NCBI GenBank assembly: GCA_015066565.1
Contig: SVOB01000001.1
Coordinates: 682,001-746,000, forward strand
Source: Oscillospiraceae bacterium
Lineage (GTDB): Bacteria > Bacillota > Clostridia > Oscillospirales > Acutalibacteraceae
Length of the DNA: 64,000 nt
Reading direction: 5' to 3'
Part shown: one piece after another, positions 21,190-32,444 of the stretch
Layout of the letters: each line of letters opens with the position of its first letter
How positions within the stretch are numbered: position 1 is the first letter of the stretch
Notes under the pieces: model-generated
Database searches by the model: none
What the model was told of the DNA's origin: nothing
Seen by the model: the letters and a program-made list of their open reading frames with translations, nothing else
Translations under genes and position numbers: made by a program

Positions 21190-21285
21190 GGTGTCGACAA
21201 ATCGGGGTCTTACTCATTAATATGTCACCTTTTTGTCACCCGATATGTGATATATTATTAAAAAATTTCCGAAAGGATGAAAGCT

Positions 21286-22335
21286 ATGCAAAAAAGTATA
21301 TCAATAAAAATGGTAATCGCAACGCTTTGCTTATGCCTGATTGCAGGAACTTTCGCAGGTTGTTCGGGTAATAACCAACAACCAGAAACTGCAAGCGAAT
21401 CAGCGGAAGATTTAGCGGTGTTTGAAAATATTGACCCAAAAGAATTAGCAGAATTAACCGACGGTTATGACCCCAAAGCTGACGCCGATTTGGAAGCTGC
21501 TCGCAGCAACAATAATGAAGCACCGTTAGCCGGTACGATTATCAACGGTCAGGATATTACTTTTACCAACAGTAATCTTGTAGAATACACCCGTTTATCA
21601 CCAAACAAAACCATACACAGAAATCATAAGATTGATACCATTACTATTCACTATATGGCAGGCAAGCTTACCGTTGAAGCCTGCGGAAATGTGTTTTCAG
21701 AATCTAAAGCAAATGCAAGCTCCAATTACGGTGTCGATGATGACGGGCGTATAGCATTGTACGTTCAGGAGTGGGACCGTTCTTGGTGCAGCAGTAACGC
21801 CGATAACGATCACCGTGCGGTAACTATTGAAGTGGCGTCAGATTCCTCCCATCCATATGCAGTCAGCGACAAAGCATATAATACAACAATTAAGCTTGTG
21901 GCAGATATATGTAAGCGAAACGGAATAGAAAAACTCGTCTGGAGTGACGACAAGGAAGCGCGCATTAAACATCTTGACGGTGCTAATATGACTGTACACA
22001 GCGATTTTGCAGATACGGTTTGTCCGGGCGAGTATCTTTACAGCAGAATGGGTGATATTGCAACACAGGTAAACAGTATTCTTGAAGAAACCAAAGGACA
22101 AACCGTAACAGGAAGAAAATGTTCTGAAGAAAAGATATTCGAAGAGTATTTGGTCAAAATTACGAAAAAAACCAGCGTTCGCAGAAATCCGGGCTTGAGC
22201 GGTTCTTTTGTCATGAATGTTAATAAAAACGAAGTATACACCATTGTGGACGAAAAAACGGTTGATAATATTAAGTGGGGAAAACTGAAAAGCGGTAAAG
22301 GCTGGATTAATCTGGCGGATACTAAAAAGCAGTAA
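21286..22335 (+). CDS. Lipoprotein N-acetylmuramoyl-L-alanine amidase (Amidase_2) with SH3-like domain
   Basis: The 349-residue lipoprotein has lipobox TFAGC. An Amidase_2 domain spans about 95-270, with zinc-ligand contexts TITIHYMAG, MTVHSDF and DTVCPGEYLYSRMG. SSNYGVDDDGRI and NDHRAVTIEVASDSS are typical of the family. It would cut the bond between muramic acid and L-Ala in peptidoglycan outside the cell. The C-terminal ~60 residues (VRRNPGLSGSF ... GWINL) form a bacterial SH3 cell-wall-binding domain. The ATG at 21286 follows AAAGGA at proper spacing; the ATG nine bases earlier is too close. It is a tandem paralogue of the next gene. Confidence 0.88.
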   Translation: MQKSISIKMVIATLCLCLIAGTFAGCSGNNQQPETASESAEDLAVFENIDPKELAELTDGYDPKADADLEAARSNNNEAPLAGTIINGQDITFTNSNLVEYTRLSPNKTIHRNHKIDTITIHYMAGKLTVEACGNVFSESKANASSNYGVDDDGRIALYVQEWDRSWCSSNADNDHRAVTIEVASDSSHPYAVSDKAYNTTIKLVADICKRNGIEKLVWSDDKEARIKHLDGANMTVHSDFADTVCPGEYLYSRMGDIATQVNSILEETKGQTVTGRKCSEEKIFEEYLVKITKKTSVRRNPGLSGSFVMNVNKNEVYTIVDEKTVDNIKWGKLKSGKGWINLADTKKQ

Positions 22336-22438
22336 TCGTTGTATGTTCACTATAGAAAGCCTTATAAATTCTGATTTAACGAACAGAAAGCACCTTGCTT
22401 TTGCACAGAACCGTAAAAAGTAGACAATAGAAAAACAG

Positions 22439-22475
22439 CCCCCTATGGTAGAATAAAAGAAACTACCATAGGGGG
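22439..22475. repeat. Long hairpin between the two amidase genes
   Basis: CCCCCTATGGTAG pairs with CTACCATAGGGGG around an 11-base loop. There is only a weak T tract, so it may end transcription or be an insertion-sequence end. Confidence 0.5.
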
Positions 22476-22521
22476 GTATATTTATGCCAAGGAAGTATAG
22501 AAACATAATTGAATTTTCTGA

Positions 22522-22550
22522 TTGATTTTTGTTTACAGAAATATTATAAT
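22522..22550 (+). promoter_or_regulatory. Promoter of the second amidase gene
   Basis: TTGATT (22522-22527), 17 bases, TATAAT (22545-22550). Confidence 0.7.
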
Positions 22551-22589
22551 TAAATTGTTGAAAATCAAAAATACGGAGGACCTGATTTT

Positions 22590-23630
22590 ATGACAAAGAG
22601 TTTATTTTTTAGATTGATGAGTGCGCTTCTTTGCGTTTGTTTGCTTGCAGGAACTTTTGCAGGCTGTTCAGGCAACAAGGCAAAAACAGATACGCCAAGT
22701 GGGGAAGCCATAGATGTAAGGGCTGATGAATACGCTGGGTTGGTTGACGGTTATGACCCTGAGGAAGATGATTTAGATGCTGAGCGCAGTGCTTCAGATG
22801 AAGCATCTTTAGCAGGTACAGTTCTCACTCTTAACGGAGAAAAAGTTTCATTTTCAAACAGTTCACTTGTGGAACATACAAGATTATCTCCTAACAAAAA
22901 CGACCCGGAACATAATATTACACACAGAACGCATAAAATAGATACTATAACAATTCATTGCATGGCAGGGCAGTTATCCGTTTATACATGCGGCAATGTA
23001 TTTGCTGATAAGGATGCAAAGGCAAGCTCAAATTACGGCATAGACAAGGACGGGCGAATTGGAATGTATGTTGAGGAGAAAGACCGTTCATGGTGCAGCA
23101 GTAACTCCGCTAATGATAACCGTGCTGTTACGATTGAGGTTGCTTCTGATTCATCTGAGCCGTACAAGGTAAACGATGCAGCGTATAAATCGCTCATCAG
23201 GCTTGTAGCAGATATTTGCCAAAGAAACAACATTGAAAGGCTTACTTGGAGTACTGACAAAGCTACACGTATTCAGCATAAAGACGGCGTCAATATGACA
23301 GTTCACAGAGATTTTGCAAATAAGTCATGCCCTGGCGATTATCTTTATAGCCGCATGGGTGAAATTGCAAAGAGAGTTAATGCCATACTTAAACAAAAAG
23401 CCTCAACAACAACAACAGTAAAATCCGAATTTCCTTATATGATAAAGATAAAAGCAAAAATGACTGACGTTCGAAAAGGCGCGGGTACGGAATATGATAT
23501 CGTAACCACAGTGAAAAAAGGTGAAGTATATACGATAGTCGAAGAACAGAAAGTAAATTCCGAAACATGGGGAAAACTCAAGAGCGACGTCGGCTGGATT
23601 AATCTTAAAGATACGGAAAGAGTTGATTAG
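22590..23630 (+). CDS. Second lipoprotein amidase (Amidase_2) with SH3-like domain
   Basis: This 346-residue paralogue of the upstream gene has the same architecture: lipobox TFAGC, Amidase_2 with zinc contexts TITIHCMAG, MTVHRDF and NKSCPGDYLYSRMG, and a C-terminal SH3 domain (DVRKGAGTEYDIV ... GWINL). Protein similarity is high from end to end, so the pair arose by tandem duplication. It has its own promoter and a strong terminator. With exported wall hydrolases next to an intramembrane protease, a role in wall remodelling, competition or phage/ICE-related lysis is possible, but nothing settles which. Confidence 0.88.
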   Translation: MTKSLFFRLMSALLCVCLLAGTFAGCSGNKAKTDTPSGEAIDVRADEYAGLVDGYDPEEDDLDAERSASDEASLAGTVLTLNGEKVSFSNSSLVEHTRLSPNKNDPEHNITHRTHKIDTITIHCMAGQLSVYTCGNVFADKDAKASSNYGIDKDGRIGMYVEEKDRSWCSSNSANDNRAVTIEVASDSSEPYKVNDAAYKSLIRLVADICQRNNIERLTWSTDKATRIQHKDGVNMTVHRDFANKSCPGDYLYSRMGEIAKRVNAILKQKASTTTTVKSEFPYMIKIKAKMTDVRKGAGTEYDIVTTVKKGEVYTIVEEQKVNSETWGKLKSDVGWINLKDTERVD

Positions 23631-25430: not shown

Positions 25431-25781
25431 TTCCCCGTTGCAAAGCGTCTGCAGTTCTGCTCCGAAATAGAAAACACTGTAATACACTGTTTGACACAGG
25501 ATGAAATATGGGAAAGTTTAATCCGCAGGATTGACGGCGAAAATGCAACTGGATAAAGCTAAATACAACAGAAAAAGCAGGATTGAAAGTGATTCAATCC
25601 TGCTTTTTGGTGCGGAAGTGGGGTAACTTGCGACTGCCTTTGCCGATGTTCAAAGTCGTTTCGGACTTTGCAGTTGGTTGACGGTTGCAGTTAGCGGGTT
25701 TCATACCATATTCAGACAAAATACAAAAAGATAAGAGCATATCCGAATGGATATGCTCTTACTTGGTGCGAGAGTGGGGTA
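25431..25781. repeat. Long direct repeat, left copy
   Basis: It starts TTCCCCGTTGCA and ends in TGCGAGAGTGGGGTATTC. It matches 31581-31933 through most of its length, including GCATATCCGAAYGGATATGC just before the end. Inside it 25514-25625 also matches 7041-7153. A bidirectional hairpin with AAAAAGCAGGATTGAA lies at 25572-25607. The next 75 bases (25781-25858) hold the palindrome's second arm and the common ACAGCGGTTGTTAAG tail. Confidence 0.75.
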
Positions 25782-25858: not shown

Positions 25859-27023
25859 TTACACCGCCAAGCCTACCTCTGTCAGATAACTGTCTGCTTT
25901 CTCTACGCTTATGGACTGAAAGTTGTCAAATACATCTGCGTATGTGTCGAGCGTTACTTTTATATCCGAGTGTCCCATAAGATGCTGTAACACCTTCGGC
26001 GGCATTCCGCTTTCTATACAACGGGTTGCGTATGTGTGTCTCAGACTGTGAAGCGATAAATCTCCCTTGACCGACTTGTCCTGTATGTTGTATCTGTTCA
26101 CTATCCGCCTGAACTCCGTGTTCACTACGCTTGTAGCTATCAGCGTTCCTGCTGATGTGTGGAAAAGTACATTGTCATCCGTGAGCGTGTATTCGGATAT
26201 TATCTTTTCAATCACAGGTCTTACGGTTTCATTTATCGGTATCTGTCTGTTGCCGTTCTCGGTCTTCGCCGTATCGTTTACAAACGCCTCTCCGTGTTCG
26301 CCCTTTGAGATAGTCTTGTCGATGTTGATGAAATTGAAATTCGTGTTCAGGTCATTAACAGAGAGAGCATTTATCTCTCCCATTCTCATTCCCGTGAACA
26401 TTGATATCAACATCTGCTCTGCATACCGTAAATTCTCATTCCGTATAACCTCAACGAGCTTCTTCTGTTCATCAAGAGTCAGCGCCCGAATCTTCTTCGT
26501 CTTTTTTTGTCGATTTCGGTTTGCGTACATCCAACATTGGATTGTCCGATATGATTTTTCTCTTCAGCGCTTCCTTGAAACACTGATTAAGAATGATATA
26601 CATTTTCTTGATAGTGCTGTTAGCGTAATCTACCTTCGAGAGTAGCAACTGCTTAATCATTGTGCTGTCTATCTTCTGAACAGGGATATCGTTAATCTCC
26701 TTACAGAGCTTGACCGTTTCCATTGTCCTGTAATATGTCTGCGGCTGAATCTCATTCATAGCTAACTTCTCATCGTAGATTTGCTTTATCAGTTGAGAGA
26801 ATGTAATCGTATTCGCATTGACAAACTTGCCGGTGTAAATGCTGAGCTTCAATTCATCGAGCTTGGCTTTGACTTCCTCCTGAGTTTCGGCTGTAACCGA
26901 TTTGCGGATTACCTTGCCGTTCTCGTCCTTGCCGACATTTATCTGAGCCATCCATTTCTGCTTAACATTGGAGTAGAATATACTCCCTTCGCCGTAATGA
27001 TTTTTCAGCTTTCGTTTAGCCAT
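25859..27023 (-). pseudogene. int: Tyrosine-type integrase, frameshifted
   Basis: Two frames together make one Tn916-like phage integrase. Residues 1-183 (26472-27023) hold the arm-binding and SAM-like domains (MAKRKLKNHYGEGSIFY, FVNANTITFSQLI). The second frame (25859-26530) holds the catalytic domain: Arg in FTGMRMGEINAL, HSLRHTYATRCIESG, LMGHSDIKVTLDTYADVF with the Tyr nucleophile. The break is at an A7 run (T7 on the plus strand, 26502-26508). Loss of one A would restore the frame. All catalytic residues are intact, so the shift is recent, a sequence error, or a slippage switch. The same gene has left relics at 9.05, 11.46 and 19.2-21.0 kb. Confidence 0.85.
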
Positions 27024-28249: not shown

Positions 28250-29228
28250 TGTCGCTTCATTATGTTAAAAATTGCACTACCCCCGTGCAATAGATTGCAC
28301 AGGAATAATATATAAAGGGTGTTTCGTAAAACCTGCCGTGGACGGTTAAGAAGTTTCATAACCTCCCGTAAAGAAAACTGACAGAAACAATCCTAAAAGC
28401 CCTTCGGGGAAAACACCGTTTTAATTATCCTTTTTACAAACACAAAATGATTGAATTTATTGTTTCAATTCTTTGGGCGTTTTTTGAACGAATGAATACA
28501 CGGCAGCAAAACTAACCGCCGAAGCAATCAAAAACGATTGTGCGGCGTTTGTGAGAGTTTTTTGACAGGATGTGCGGCAAAACTCAGATTCGCATTCGTA
28601 GGGTGCGACGACCTCGACAACCCGTTTCCTGACGAGCCGACATTTCGTGCAACGAAATAATCAGGGAGTATCCGTTGATACTCCCTGAATCAAAGGCTAC
28701 GCTTTGTCGGCTCGGTATTGAGGTGCGAATATCGGCAATTCACATTCTAACCGCTACACCCTCTCTACGCAGGGCGATTGAGAATCGCATGGCAGTTTTC
28801 AGGTAGTTTTTCAGGCGTTCGAAAACAGTCAGATTTACTCCCGTGAATAACGGTTCACTCCGGTATGTGCTCTCATAGAGTCCGTTTTGCTTAGAGCCAC
28901 AAGGGAAATCGGCATCCGTAACCACGCTTTTCGGGCTTTTTTTGAAGGCTTTGGATTTTTCAACTATTCAATGTTTTCAAGGGGTTTCGGGCTTTCGGTT
29001 TCTATTTTCGGGCGGTATCGATATGCAAGCAGGATAAAGCCGCGCCCGTTGCGGCAGTTCACACCGCACGGCAACGCCGAGCGGCTTTCGTTTTATGGGG
29101 GAACAATCACCGTAATAACTCCCTTAACCGTGAGTCCAAGCATCGCCTTACGGCGTCTTGTTTCGGCAAGCCGAAAGAACGGGCAGAAGCCCGCACCCAC
29201 TGATTAATAAAAAATATTGAGAAAATAT
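28250..29228. other. One-kilobase stretch without a supported gene
   Basis: It contains the dispersed repeat shared with 12235-12363 and then a multi-branched palindrome (28588-28730). From about 28900 to 29210 there is GC-richer sequence with decayed coding character, including short hairpins such as GGGCAGAAGCCC. The short open frames have no ribosome binding site or recognisable motif. The GC-rich end may be a relic of a conjugative element, but I cannot identify it. Confidence 0.5.
28588..28730. repeat. Nested multi-branch palindrome
   Basis: Outer arms ATTCGCA (28588-28594) and TGCGAAT (28724-28730) enclose a 10-bp stem CGAGCCGACA/TGTCGGCTCG (28633-28642 and 28705-28714). Inside are hairpins TTTCGT/ACGAAA and TCAGGGAGTATC/GATACTCCCTGA. 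The layout predicts a multi-way junction of DNA or RNA. Confidence 0.6.
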
Positions 29229-29308
29229 GTCGAATATGTTAAAATAAATATGAATTGGGTAATGACAAAAACGACCATTTAAAATTTTGATGAAAGGAAT
29301 GACTTCTC

Positions 29309-30034
29309 GTGGAAATTAAAAGCTTAATGAAGTGCAAACAAAGAGATTTAGAAAACAAGCTTAACGTACCATTAGACCATCCTACTACAAAAGGCGACCA
29401 TAGAGAAGCAGCATGGATAGATTTTTTCAGAAGCTTTTTGCCAAGCAAATATGCAATTGACAAAGGATTTGTATTCGATGCAAAAGGTGGTATTAGTGAA
29501 CAAATTGATATAATTATTTATGATGCGTTATATACACCACTAATTTATACTACTGATGCTGGTGAAAAATATATTACGGCTGAAAGTGTATATGCCGTTT
29601 TTGATTCAAAACCTAAAATTGATAAATCAACTCTTGAATATACTAACAAAAAAATTGAATCTGTTACCAATCTTTACCGTTCAAACAGAGGTGTGGTTGT
29701 CGCAGGAAGGGAAAATCCACCTAGGGAGCTTACTCCAATTTATGGAGGGATACTAGCGTTGGATAGTGTTACACCTGAAACCATAATTGAACACGTAAAA
29801 AACTACAGTAGTATAGATTTTGGATGCTCAATTCACGATTTTACATTTCATGTTAGAAGAGATGATAACAGGCATTATTTAAGTATGATTACATCCGCAA
29901 AGGATGAAACTATACTTGCCTTTTATTATCTAATACTTGAAATGTTATACAAAATAGGTACTGTTGCCGGATTAGATATAAGAGATTATGCAGACACAAC
30001 GTTAACTCAGTTTAAGATTGAGAGAGGTGATTAA
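29309..30034 (+). CDS. DUF6602-like protein with PD-(D/E)XK nuclease-type motifs
   Basis: A 241-residue cytoplasmic protein. TTKGDHREAAWIDFFRSFLP, the Gln/Asp strand SEQIDIIIYDALYTPLI and ESVYAVFDSKPKI form the pattern E33 ... D67 ... D99-x-K101, as in PD-(D/E)XK nuclease folds. Family members I recall read ESVYAVIEVKS at the last motif, so the Asp here is a mild variant. The start is GTG at 29309 after AAAGGA, with ATG at 29327 as alternative. Its stop lies two bases before the probable start of the CD-NTase. It may be the effector or DNA-processing partner of the signalling enzyme. The sequence is clearly more AT-rich than core genes. Confidence 0.7.
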   Translation: MEIKSLMKCKQRDLENKLNVPLDHPTTKGDHREAAWIDFFRSFLPSKYAIDKGFVFDAKGGISEQIDIIIYDALYTPLIYTTDAGEKYITAESVYAVFDSKPKIDKSTLEYTNKKIESVTNLYRSNRGVVVAGRENPPRELTPIYGGILALDSVTPETIIEHVKNYSSIDFGCSIHDFTFHVRRDDNRHYLSMITSAKDETILAFYYLILEMLYKIGTVAGLDIRDYADTTLTQFKIERGD

Positions 30035-30036
30035 CC

Positions 30037-31347
30037 ATAGCATTACAAAAACATTTTGATGATTTTTTAAGCAAAATAGAACCAAAACCATCTACAGTTT
30101 CATACATTAGTAGTGTACAAAAAAACTTAAGAGATTATCTTAAAAATCACACAGAATATAGCAAAGTATATATTGATTCATTTTTGTCGGGCTCATATGC
30201 AAAACATACAGCTATTAGACCAGCAGTGGATGATAAAAAACGAGATGTCGATATAATTGTTGTAACAAATTACAATAAAAATGACGATTCTTCAAAGGTG
30301 TTATCTGAGCTTGAAGAAATATTAAGAGGGAACAACAATTATTCCAATACAACTATTCAACATCATTCTGTTGGTGTGAAAATGGGTGAAATTAGTGTTG
30401 ATATTGTTCCAGTAATTATCGAAGAAAGCGATGATTCTTTATACTTGGTTGGAGACTCAGAAACCGGCGCTTGGACATTAACTGATCCCAAAGGGCACAA
30501 AGAATGGTCAACCGCCGTAAACCAAAATAATAACCAAAAATACAAACCATTAGTAAAAGTTTTTAAATGGTGGAGAAAAACAAATTGTCCTGAAAATTCT
30601 AAATATCCTAAGGGCATCACATTGGAAAAAATAGTAGCAGATAATTTAGGTGATTCTTCATTAACAACAGAGGAATTGCTTATTGATACTATTGAAAACA
30701 TAATAGATTCATATAAAGAAGACTATATAGATAAATGGGAATTGCCCGTTATTGATGACCCATCTGAGAAAATAGTTGGTAATGACTTGTTATCAGGATA
30801 TAATATTTCAGATTTTTCTGATTTCATTGACAAATTAATTGAACATATTAAACTACTAAACGATGAAGGAACTGATTGTGAAACATGGAGAAAAATATTT
30901 GGAAATGAGTTCCCAAAGGATGATGCAAGTAAAAACAACCGATTGGCTGTATTAAATTCTTTTTCCATTTTACCTCACAAACAGAAACCTTACTGGAGAA
31001 TAAAAAAAGAAGGGTATGCCTTCATTACACTAAAGGTGTACGCATCTGATGGCAAAAAAATTGATTATTCAAATAATGGCACCCCTCTTCCTAAACATTG
31101 CGACTTAGATTTTAGTGTAATTACTAATATTAAAAAGCCATTTAGAATTGCTTGGCAAATTGTTAACACTGGTGAGGAGGCAAGTCGGGAAAACGCATTA
31201 CGTGGTGGATTTGAATATGCCGATCAAAACGGAATTAAGTGGAGTGAACAAACTTTGTATAAAGGTTCACATTCTGTTCAATGTTTTGTAATTAGAAATG
31301 GGGTTTGTGTTGCTAATAGCAAAGAAATAATCATTAATATTCAATAG
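30037..31347 (+). CDS. CD-NTase (SMODS-type nucleotidyltransferase) with AGS-C-like sensor domain
   Basis: Counting from ATA 30037 the protein has 436 residues. The nucleotidyltransferase core has GSY at 52-54, the metal pair D70-V-D72 in KRDVDIIVV, and a third carboxylate D122 in EISVDIVPVI. Residues about 320-436 match the AGS-C sensor pattern: IAWQIVNTGEEA, ALRGGFEYAD, QTLYKGSHSVQCFVIRNGVC. Such enzymes make cyclic or linear oligonucleotide signals in CBASS anti-phage defence. There is no ATG at the N-terminus. The homologous helix LQKHFDDFLSKIEPKPSTV requires a start at ATA 30037, which has GAGAGG seven bases upstream. A TTG at 30184 would begin only two codons before the GSY motif. Confidence 0.85.
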   Translation: MALQKHFDDFLSKIEPKPSTVSYISSVQKNLRDYLKNHTEYSKVYIDSFLSGSYAKHTAIRPAVDDKKRDVDIIVVTNYNKNDDSSKVLSELEEILRGNNNYSNTTIQHHSVGVKMGEISVDIVPVIIEESDDSLYLVGDSETGAWTLTDPKGHKEWSTAVNQNNNQKYKPLVKVFKWWRKTNCPENSKYPKGITLEKIVADNLGDSSLTTEELLIDTIENIIDSYKEDYIDKWELPVIDDPSEKIVGNDLLSGYNISDFSDFIDKLIEHIKLLNDEGTDCETWRKIFGNEFPKDDASKNNRLAVLNSFSILPHKQKPYWRIKKEGYAFITLKVYASDGKKIDYSNNGTPLPKHCDLDFSVITNIKKPFRIAWQIVNTGEEASRENALRGGFEYADQNGIKWSEQTLYKGSHSVQCFVIRNGVCVANSKEIIINIQ

Positions 31348-31393
31348 CACTATTCTTATATTGAACATTACATTTAACTACTGGAATGAAAGA

Positions 31394-31573
31394 ATGATAA
31401 AAATGAATGAAAAAGAATTAAAAGAGATATTTAAGCAAATTGCCGATAACACAAGCCACAAACTCACGCAAGAAGAAAAGGAGCTTATAAAACTTGGTAT
31501 TGACAATTCAAAGAACATACAAGAACTAGCCACAGTTTTTCTTATTAAAAACTTCTTGCAAAACAACAGATAG
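31394..31573 (+). CDS. Small helical protein downstream of the CD-NTase
   Basis: A 59-residue, highly charged, probably all-helical protein (NEKELKEIFKQIADN, LTQEEKELIKLGIDN). ATG 31394 has GGA eight bases upstream; ATG 31403 is possible. It begins 46 bases after the CD-NTase stop with no terminator between, so it is probably third in the operon. No family recognised; it could be an inhibitor, adaptor or membrane-free effector subunit. Confidence 0.5.
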   Translation: MIKMNEKELKEIFKQIADNTSHKLTQEEKELIKLGIDNSKNIQELATVFLIKNFLQNNR

Positions 31574-31580
31574 TATCATA

Positions 31581-31933
31581 TTCCCCGTTGCAGACCGTAT
31601 GCAGTTTGGGACAAAAGTAGAAAGCATTAGATTGCTCTGTATGACACGCCGTTAAATCTTTGCGGTTTCGGCGGTGCGGTACTGCCGCTGTTTATGCGAC
31701 TCAAAAGCACCGGAAAGAATTAAAAAAACAGGATTGAACGAAATGTTCAATCCTGTTTTTGGTGCGGAAGTGGGGTAACTGGCGACTGACTTTGCCGATG
31801 TTTCAAGCCGTTTCGGGTTTTGCGGTTGGTTGTCGGTTGCAGTTAGCGGGTTTTATGCCGTATTCAGACAAAATACAAAAAGTTAAGAGCATATCCGAAC
31901 GGATATGCTCTTACTTGGTGCGAGAGACGGGAC
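31581..31933. repeat. Long direct repeat, right copy
   Basis: Right partner of 25431-25781. Similarity is interrupted in places but includes GGTTGCAGTTAGCGGGTTT, TTCAGACAAAATACAAAAAG and AAGAGCATATCCGAACGGAT. It ends in TGCGAGAGACGGGAC, the exact 3' end of tRNA-Leu on the other strand, and so looks like an attachment site. Confidence 0.75.
31724..31760. terminator. Bidirectional terminator after the defence-like operon
   Basis: AAAAACAGGATTGAA pairs with TTCAATCCTGTTTTT. Confidence 0.8.
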
Positions 31934-32322: not shown

Positions 32323-32328
32323 CCATTA

Positions 32329-32410
32329 TGCGAGAGACGGGACTTGAACCCGTACGTACTGCTACACACGCCCCTCAAACGTGCGCGTCTGCCGATTCCG
32401 CCACTCTCGC
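32329..32410 (-). tRNA. tRNA-Leu (anticodon GAG)
   Basis: An 82-base class II tRNA without encoded CCA. The acceptor GCGAGAG pairs with CTCTCGC and the discriminator is A. The anticodon arm is CACGT-TTGAGGG-GCGTG with GAG in the centre. A variable arm and GGGTTCAAGTCCC T-arm follow. Its 3' end is copied at 31919 and 32120, so it is the apparent integration target for the island. Confidence 0.93.
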
Positions 32411-32444
32411 ATATTCGGTTCGCCGTCTTTTGACGACGCTTGAT

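Follow-up and report, generated by a model that had tools for sequence, protein, structure and literature searches.

A two-gene (type I) CBASS system very probably accounts for a gene pair of an Oscillospiraceae bacterium (Acutalibacteraceae), in which nucC, the gene of a cA3-activated DNA endonuclease, stands directly ahead of the gene of a CdnD-like CD-NTase with a C-terminal AGS_C domain. The pair was studied in a window of 64,000 nt, the whole stretch of DNA that was analysed (GCA_015066565.1, contig SVOB01000001.1, positions 682,001-746,000 of the forward strand). The identities of both genes are known; their pairing, with nucC in first place and a CdnD-like cyclase carrying AGS_C, is uncommon in what is otherwise an ordinary-looking two-gene NucC CBASS.

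A first-pass annotation of this DNA had proposed an undescribed defence unit of three adjacent, AT-rich genes on one strand. The ORF list confirmed three successive ORFs on the plus strand (Table 1), and the GC content was 0.312 at 30-31 kb, compared with 0.40-0.48 in 49 of the 64 one-kilobase intervals. The term undescribed had to be given up: the DUF6602 protein encoded by the first gene is identified by its sequence as NucC, a known effector, and the locus therefore reads as a two-gene CBASS.

Table 1 Features of the locus, in coordinates of the window
Feature	Position	Strand	Remarks
Left repeat with tRNA-end-like core	25604..25779	+	176 nt, 91% identical to 31756-31931
Host-element tyrosine integrase, in two ORFs owing to a frameshift	25859..27023	-	Phage_integrase 1.7e-28, Phage_int_SAM_5 3.9e-07
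Promoter-like site upstream of nucC	29217..29245	+	TTGAGA, 17 nt, extended -10 TAAAAT; consensus scan, weak
nucC, cA3-activated DNA endonuclease (elsewhere annotated DUF6602)	29309..30034	+	241 aa, GTG start; PADLOC, PDB matches
AGGTGA, ribosome-binding-like site	30025..30030	+	6 nt before ATA; read from the sequence
CD-NTase, SMODS (residues 3-162) and C-terminal AGS_C (314-436)	30037..31347	+	apparent ATA start, 436-aa reading; Pfam, PDB, PADLOC
Small ORF, 59 aa from the first ATG	31394..31573	+	probably unrelated cargo
Terminator-like hairpin at the cargo end	31724..31760	. (reported on - strand)	16-pair stem
Right repeat with tRNA-end-like core	31756..31931	+	direct repeat of 25604-25779; GCGAGAGACGGGAC at 31920
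tRNA-Leu (GAG), target of tandem integrations	32328..32411	-	ARAGORN, Rfam RF00005

Identification of NucC

The product of the first gene matched the PADLOC model of the CBASS effector NucC over residues 2-230 (4.7e-67), a second NucC model (7.2e-45) and the Pfam family DUF6602 (4.6e-28, over the Pfam cut-off). A phmmer search of the PDB returned five sequences, all with E values of 2.5e-26 or lower; four are named NucC and one is named 'Bacterial protein ORF C62'. These matches ranged from NucC of Vibrio metoecus, the best of them (6uxf, 1.3e-36, residues 6-228), to NucC of E. coli MS115-1, and 6p7o was matched at 4.9e-27. The first-pass annotation had denied the presence of any standard CBASS effector, a NucC gene included; judged by the PADLOC and 6uxf matches this was wrong, and the 'DUF6602 nuclease' is itself NucC, known from CBASS and from type III CRISPR. 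The miss is explained by the prevailing annotation: among the 60 plasmid entries listed out of 103 records, 40 bear the name DUF6602 and 9 the name nucC. Loci in which a cyclase adjoins a DUF6602 gene should be checked as CBASS, since such a gene may encode NucC.

The nuclease had correctly been recognized as being of the PD-(D/E)XK type, and the residues named for it (E33, D67, D99-x-K101) are present. In the alignment with E. coli NucC, its functional residues D73, E104, K106, Y81 and T226 have D67, D99, K101, Y75 and T218 as their counterparts. The D...(D/E)xK active site consists of D67, D99 and K101, with D99 in place of the usual Glu104, and an Asp likewise occupies this position in the close relative L012. 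K47 aligns with R53 of the E. coli protein, presumably a ligand of cA3, and this difference counts against the reading as a cA3-gated pair. In relatives, NucC is a cA3-activated DNase that passes from trimers to hexamers (PMC10419184), and activation of NucC by cA3 is also described in PMC8682760.

The cyclase and its predicted product

For the second gene the annotation as a CD-NTase with AGS_C proved right. Pfam returned SMODS (3.3e-35) and AGS_C (1.3e-28), both over the cut-off and the latter (PF18134) with 100 bits against a curated cut-off of 26.7, and PADLOC returned a cyclase (3.9e-81). The motifs reported earlier, GSY (52-54), DVD (70-72) and the distant D122, are all present; with the SMODS domain they make up the features of a CD-NTase, namely a GS motif and DxD with a distant Asp. 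The best solved relative by sequence was CdnD of Bacillus cereus (BcCdnD; 9sa4, 9.5e-54), deposited with PMC13424991. Relative to BcCdnD the protein keeps S51-G-S-Y54, T149, H154, D70, D72, D122 and K177, while R56, R111 and F194 are replaced by K, H and I, which likewise counts against that reading. An AlphaFold2 model built on a 4-row alignment had a mean pLDDT of 69.5, with 76-94 in blocks 1-40 and 71-290, 45-55 in block 41-70, which holds the GS motif, and 30-53 by block, thus low confidence, in the AGS_C part. A Foldseek search with this model found CdnD structures as best matches (7d4j, E 2.3e-16), so that the nucleotidyltransferase fold, whose absence was to have counted against the first-pass annotation, is predicted.

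BcCdnD is reported to produce 3'3'3'-cA3, a signal that switches on not only Cap4 but also CRISPR-associated NucC; a rule given for clades C and D in the same paper connects Ser/Thr at the first position of XGSX and a His at lid 2 with cA3 (PMC13424991). The cyclase studied here has S51 and the lid residues T149/H154. From solved and assayed relatives, together with SGSY and the lid His, we infer that its product is 3'3'3'-cA3. NucC is activated by cA3 and the cyclase carries cA3 determinants; the two halves of the pair therefore fit each other by independent criteria. The AGS_C domain may be the sensing or regulatory part of the cyclase. One review gives the name AGS-C to the C-terminal part of DncV, a usage that may not concern the Pfam family AGS_C.

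Assignment to CBASS and comparison with known systems

The same-strand ORFs of at least 100 aa between 27.1 and 31.6 kb were a kinase-like ORF, a GNAT ORF, a 106-aa ORF, nucC and the cyclase. This region thus holds the gene content of type I CBASS, a cyclase and an effector, with no Cap2/Cap3 or HORMA/TRIP13 beside them. Neither HORMA nor TRIP13, which belong to the gene content of type III CBASS, was found among the surrounding ORFs; a search of the genome with one true bacHORMA_1 protein gave no match, which shows little as the search had no positive control. The possibility that NucC is an orphan CRISPR effector of this genome was rejected: a Cas10 palm search gave no match in the genome and matched in 5 of 14 control genomes, and hence no CRISPR source of cA3 was seen.

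The proposed action draws on solved or assayed relatives for the cA3 product, the activation of NucC and the abortive outcome. A phage cue would activate the CdnD-like CD-NTase, perhaps through its AGS_C domain or by release from it. The activated cyclase would then make 3'3'3'-cA3, which would bind NucC trimers and join them into hexamers; the hexamers would cut double-stranded DNA and the infected cell would be stopped. Signal-gated DNA cleavage had been suggested in the first-pass annotation, rightly so as far as the likely action is concerned.

Type I CBASS loci on a Paenibacillus rhizovicinus plasmid (L031) and on Rhizobium pRL12 (L034) likewise have a nucleotidyltransferase directly adjoining NucC and no HORMA, TRIP13, ThiF or Mov34 annotated beside the pair. 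In these loci the cyclase comes first, has about 250 aa and gives no AGS_C match (that of L034 gives no Pfam match at 0.001 at all), whereas the present pair starts with nucC and has a CdnD-like cyclase that carries AGS_C. The type III CBASS of E. coli MS115-1 consists of CdnC-HORMA-TRIP13-NucC; it shares the effector with the present pair, beside which HORMA and TRIP13 ORFs are absent. The type II CBASS of Bacillus cereus has the closest solved cyclase with the same cA3-determining residues but uses Cap2/Cap3 and Cap4 (PMC13424991) in place of AGS_C and NucC. The NucC proteins of type III-A CRISPR loci in Anaeromassilibacillus senegalensis (L040) and An250 (L037) are 61-63% identical to NucC of the window; their signal comes from Cas10/Csm1 beside CRISPR arrays, here it would come from the CD-NTase. 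An established published system with the same gene pair was to have refuted the first-pass proposal; no paper on the exact pair of nucC and AGS_C cyclase was found in a literature search that covered few subscription journals.

Relatives of the pair and exchange of partners

The pair is rare. At 1e-20, a relative of the cyclase occurred in 1 of 295 genomes of the order sample, the window's own; in the class sample of 391 genomes, 8 had one at 1e-10, the window's own included, and 7 had AGS_C. NucC-like matches at 1e-6 were present in 13 of these class genomes, only four of them nearly full length, and the genome of the window was the only one among the 391 that carried both a cyclase relative and a NucC-like match. 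By our reading of the sequences, the other AGS_C cyclases of the class sample adjoin other genes, for example small membrane-protein-like ORFs. Single-protein scans of viral contigs with NucC and with the cyclase yielded no relative, nor did a scan of phage records with the cyclase.

When genomes were scanned with an alignment of 10 NucC sequences, 483 relatives were obtained, and the best 80 of these were analysed. Partner genes at these 80 loci were sought by phmmer with 13 query proteins at 1e-5, and three cyclases (L038, L041 and L042) were scanned against Pfam. Seven of the best 80 loci encode a NucC with 54-63% identity to that of the window. An ORF for which the cyclase of the window was the best-matching query occurred at three of the 80 loci, in each case directly after nucC, and all three belong to these seven: L038 (a Clostridiales MAG), L041 (Bifidobacterium biavatii) and L042 (Enterococcus avium). 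Pfam found AGS_C in the cyclases of L038 and L041 and not in that of L042, which was rejected as an instance of the same pair. Joint conservation, on which the first-pass annotation had made its proposal depend, holds insofar as the pair recurs with its gene order kept in a few other genomes (L038, L041), and is limited by its rarity. In L041 (3266-14711) the pair is flanked by a DNA methylase gene and brxL and so seems to lie within a BREX locus.

In three of the seven, L037, L040 and L043, Cas10 is encoded upstream and nucC adjoins a CRISPR array. Csm1 was matched at 2.7e-146 in L037 and at 1.4e-146 in L040, which is the same contig as G092 of the class sample. In L043 the Csm1 match (3.8e-22) was below the curated cut-off and the Pfam Cas10 palm was matched at 5.8e-20, leaving the subtype unsure. 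L039 has a Cas6-like ORF before nucC at the contig edge (NCBIfam 1.5e-07, below the cut-off; Pfam 1.2e-08, above it), on which its CRISPR label rests; neither Cas10 nor an array was found in its 6.1 kb. At 12 of the other 73 loci the sole partner match was a short, L031-type nucleotidyltransferase (score at least 170); 7 match a bacHORMA_1 protein and many others match ThiF or Mov34.

A tree of 88 NucC sequences (the 80 scan loci, 7 plasmid loci and the window) and a smaller one of 16 of these 88 were computed. Neighbouring genes had defined the groups before the first tree was made; the topology test was chosen after that tree had been viewed. In the large tree AGS_C-paired and CRISPR-placed members were intermixed, and L038 and L039 were sisters (100/99) with 71% identity; with shuffled labels, clustering was often equally strong (137 and 159 of 500 shuffles). 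In the small tree the branch joining the window with L038, L039 and L041 reached only 82/80. Topologies holding together the three AGS_C-paired members (p-AU 0.0003) or the four CRISPR-placed members (p-AU 0.00009) were rejected there, and both rejections lean on L039 with its label from Cas6 alone. Even when L039 is left out, the clade contains members with either type of partner, which indicates at least one partner change.

NucC serves both CBASS and type III CRISPR (PMC8682760) and has been reported from 35 CRISPR loci (PMC11229360). To this published dual use our data add a clade where the swap took place at a distance short enough for it to be resolved; with close relatives under a CD-NTase or in type III CRISPR, it offers a natural set for studying how a cA3-gated nuclease is swapped. 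One may go further and regard the locus as a distinct CBASS subtype, in which AGS_C on a cA3-making CdnD-like cyclase does the sensing performed elsewhere by HORMA/TRIP13 or Cap2/Cap3 and whose NucC has been exchanged with type III CRISPR loci on more than one occasion, one cA3 effector serving either alarm. We advance this tentatively and consider it rather doubtful at present. The AGS_C pairs provide a compact test bed for the role of this domain.

The mobile setting and the start of the cyclase

The proposal that an integrative element at a tRNA carries these genes as its cargo was supported by a direct repeat, copies of the tRNA-Leu end and an integrase. The end sequence GCGAGAGACGGGAC occurs at 31920, 32121 and 32330, three matches compared with 0.18 expected by shuffling. 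The element holding the pair extends from about 25.77 to 31.93 kb (about 6.2 kb) and also carries the split tyrosine integrase, whose ORFs overlap in different frames, a nucleotide-kinase-like ORF (below every cut-off) and the GNAT ORF. A second, more decayed copy of the integrase lies at 19.2-21.1 kb. Between 16952 and 32411 the two related integrase genes are accompanied by tRNA-end-like copies near 16.97, 25.77, 31.92 and 32.12 kb. The 176-nt direct repeat and the tRNA-Leu end copies therefore point to a tandem array, which supports the view that the element is one of several stacked integrative-element remnants at the tRNA-Leu end.

Two adjacent, related N-acetylmuramoyl-L-alanine amidase ORFs (Amidase_2, 2.1e-18 and 8.9e-21) lie at 21277-23630, their DNA being 72% identical over 300 nt. 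Between the GNAT ORF and nucC, about 0.9 kb (28320-29200) contain hairpins and no convincing gene; the 106-aa ORF in this region had no Pfam match, and the region had no Rfam match. The promoter scan was weak, with 18 sites in the region and 13.2 expected.

The cyclase was listed from a TTG at 30184, although its frame is open from 30031 and homology begins at codon 30037. This codon is ATA and follows the nucC stop after 2 nt, while at the same place the relatives have GTG (L038), ATG (L041) and ATG (L042). ATA is a permitted but rare start in translation table 11. Because there is no ATG, GTG or TTG at the homologous start, expression of the cyclase is uncertain, and a start that is weak or lost has to be taken seriously. 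The locus could accordingly be a decaying CBASS remnant in which nucC is intact but little or no cyclase is translated, and the integrase of the element already has a frameshift; both this frameshift and the start codons of the three relatives speak for such decay. Yet the reading frame of the cyclase runs uninterrupted for 436 codons and its catalytic residues are conserved, the AGGTGA site precedes an ATA that table 11 allows, and a lost start would normally soon bring further damage, none of which was seen. We consider a remnant unlikely and retain the reading as a two-gene CBASS.

The third ORF and the reading as a new system

The first-pass annotation had counted the small third gene as part of the unit, which is probably incorrect. 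For the 59-aa ORF, neither Pfam nor NCBIfam gave a match above a curated cut-off, and no match in four libraries had an E value below 0.04. Against 24271 ORFs of 127 loci it matched only its own copies, three loci picked by its own search and, with E values of 7 and 8.9, two nucC loci, so that no credible match was found among the nucC loci of the genome scan (best 80 of 483). At 0.01 it was matched in 4 of 40 genomes, the window's own included: two genomes of the same genus, at other loci, and one weak match in the same order. Of the copies in the same genus, one has an internal stop and one stands beside a DUF6414 gene. A three-gene unit with the 59-aa protein as inhibitor or sensor would agree with the position of the ORF on the same strand, 46 nt downstream of the cyclase and ahead of the terminator-like hairpin, but given other nucC loci lacking a credible counterpart and relatives residing elsewhere we regard it as very improbable; the ORF is probably separate cargo. 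Its relatives at other places in the same genus (L119, 1501-1671, and L118) form a small orphan family.

A new signal-gated nuclease system lacking a standard CBASS effector, as first proposed, owes its plausibility to the name DUF6602, which hides the identity of the protein in most of the listed plasmid records, and can practically be dismissed against a full-length NucC profile match and the five PDB sequences, unless this NucC responds to some ligand that is not a cyclic trinucleotide.

Among the relatives, one locus of Gastranaerophilales (L046, 6305-7690) has a short cyclase and NucC in one open frame, and the near-identical L047 (570-2071) has them as two ORFs; the single frame may represent a fusion or a frameshift.
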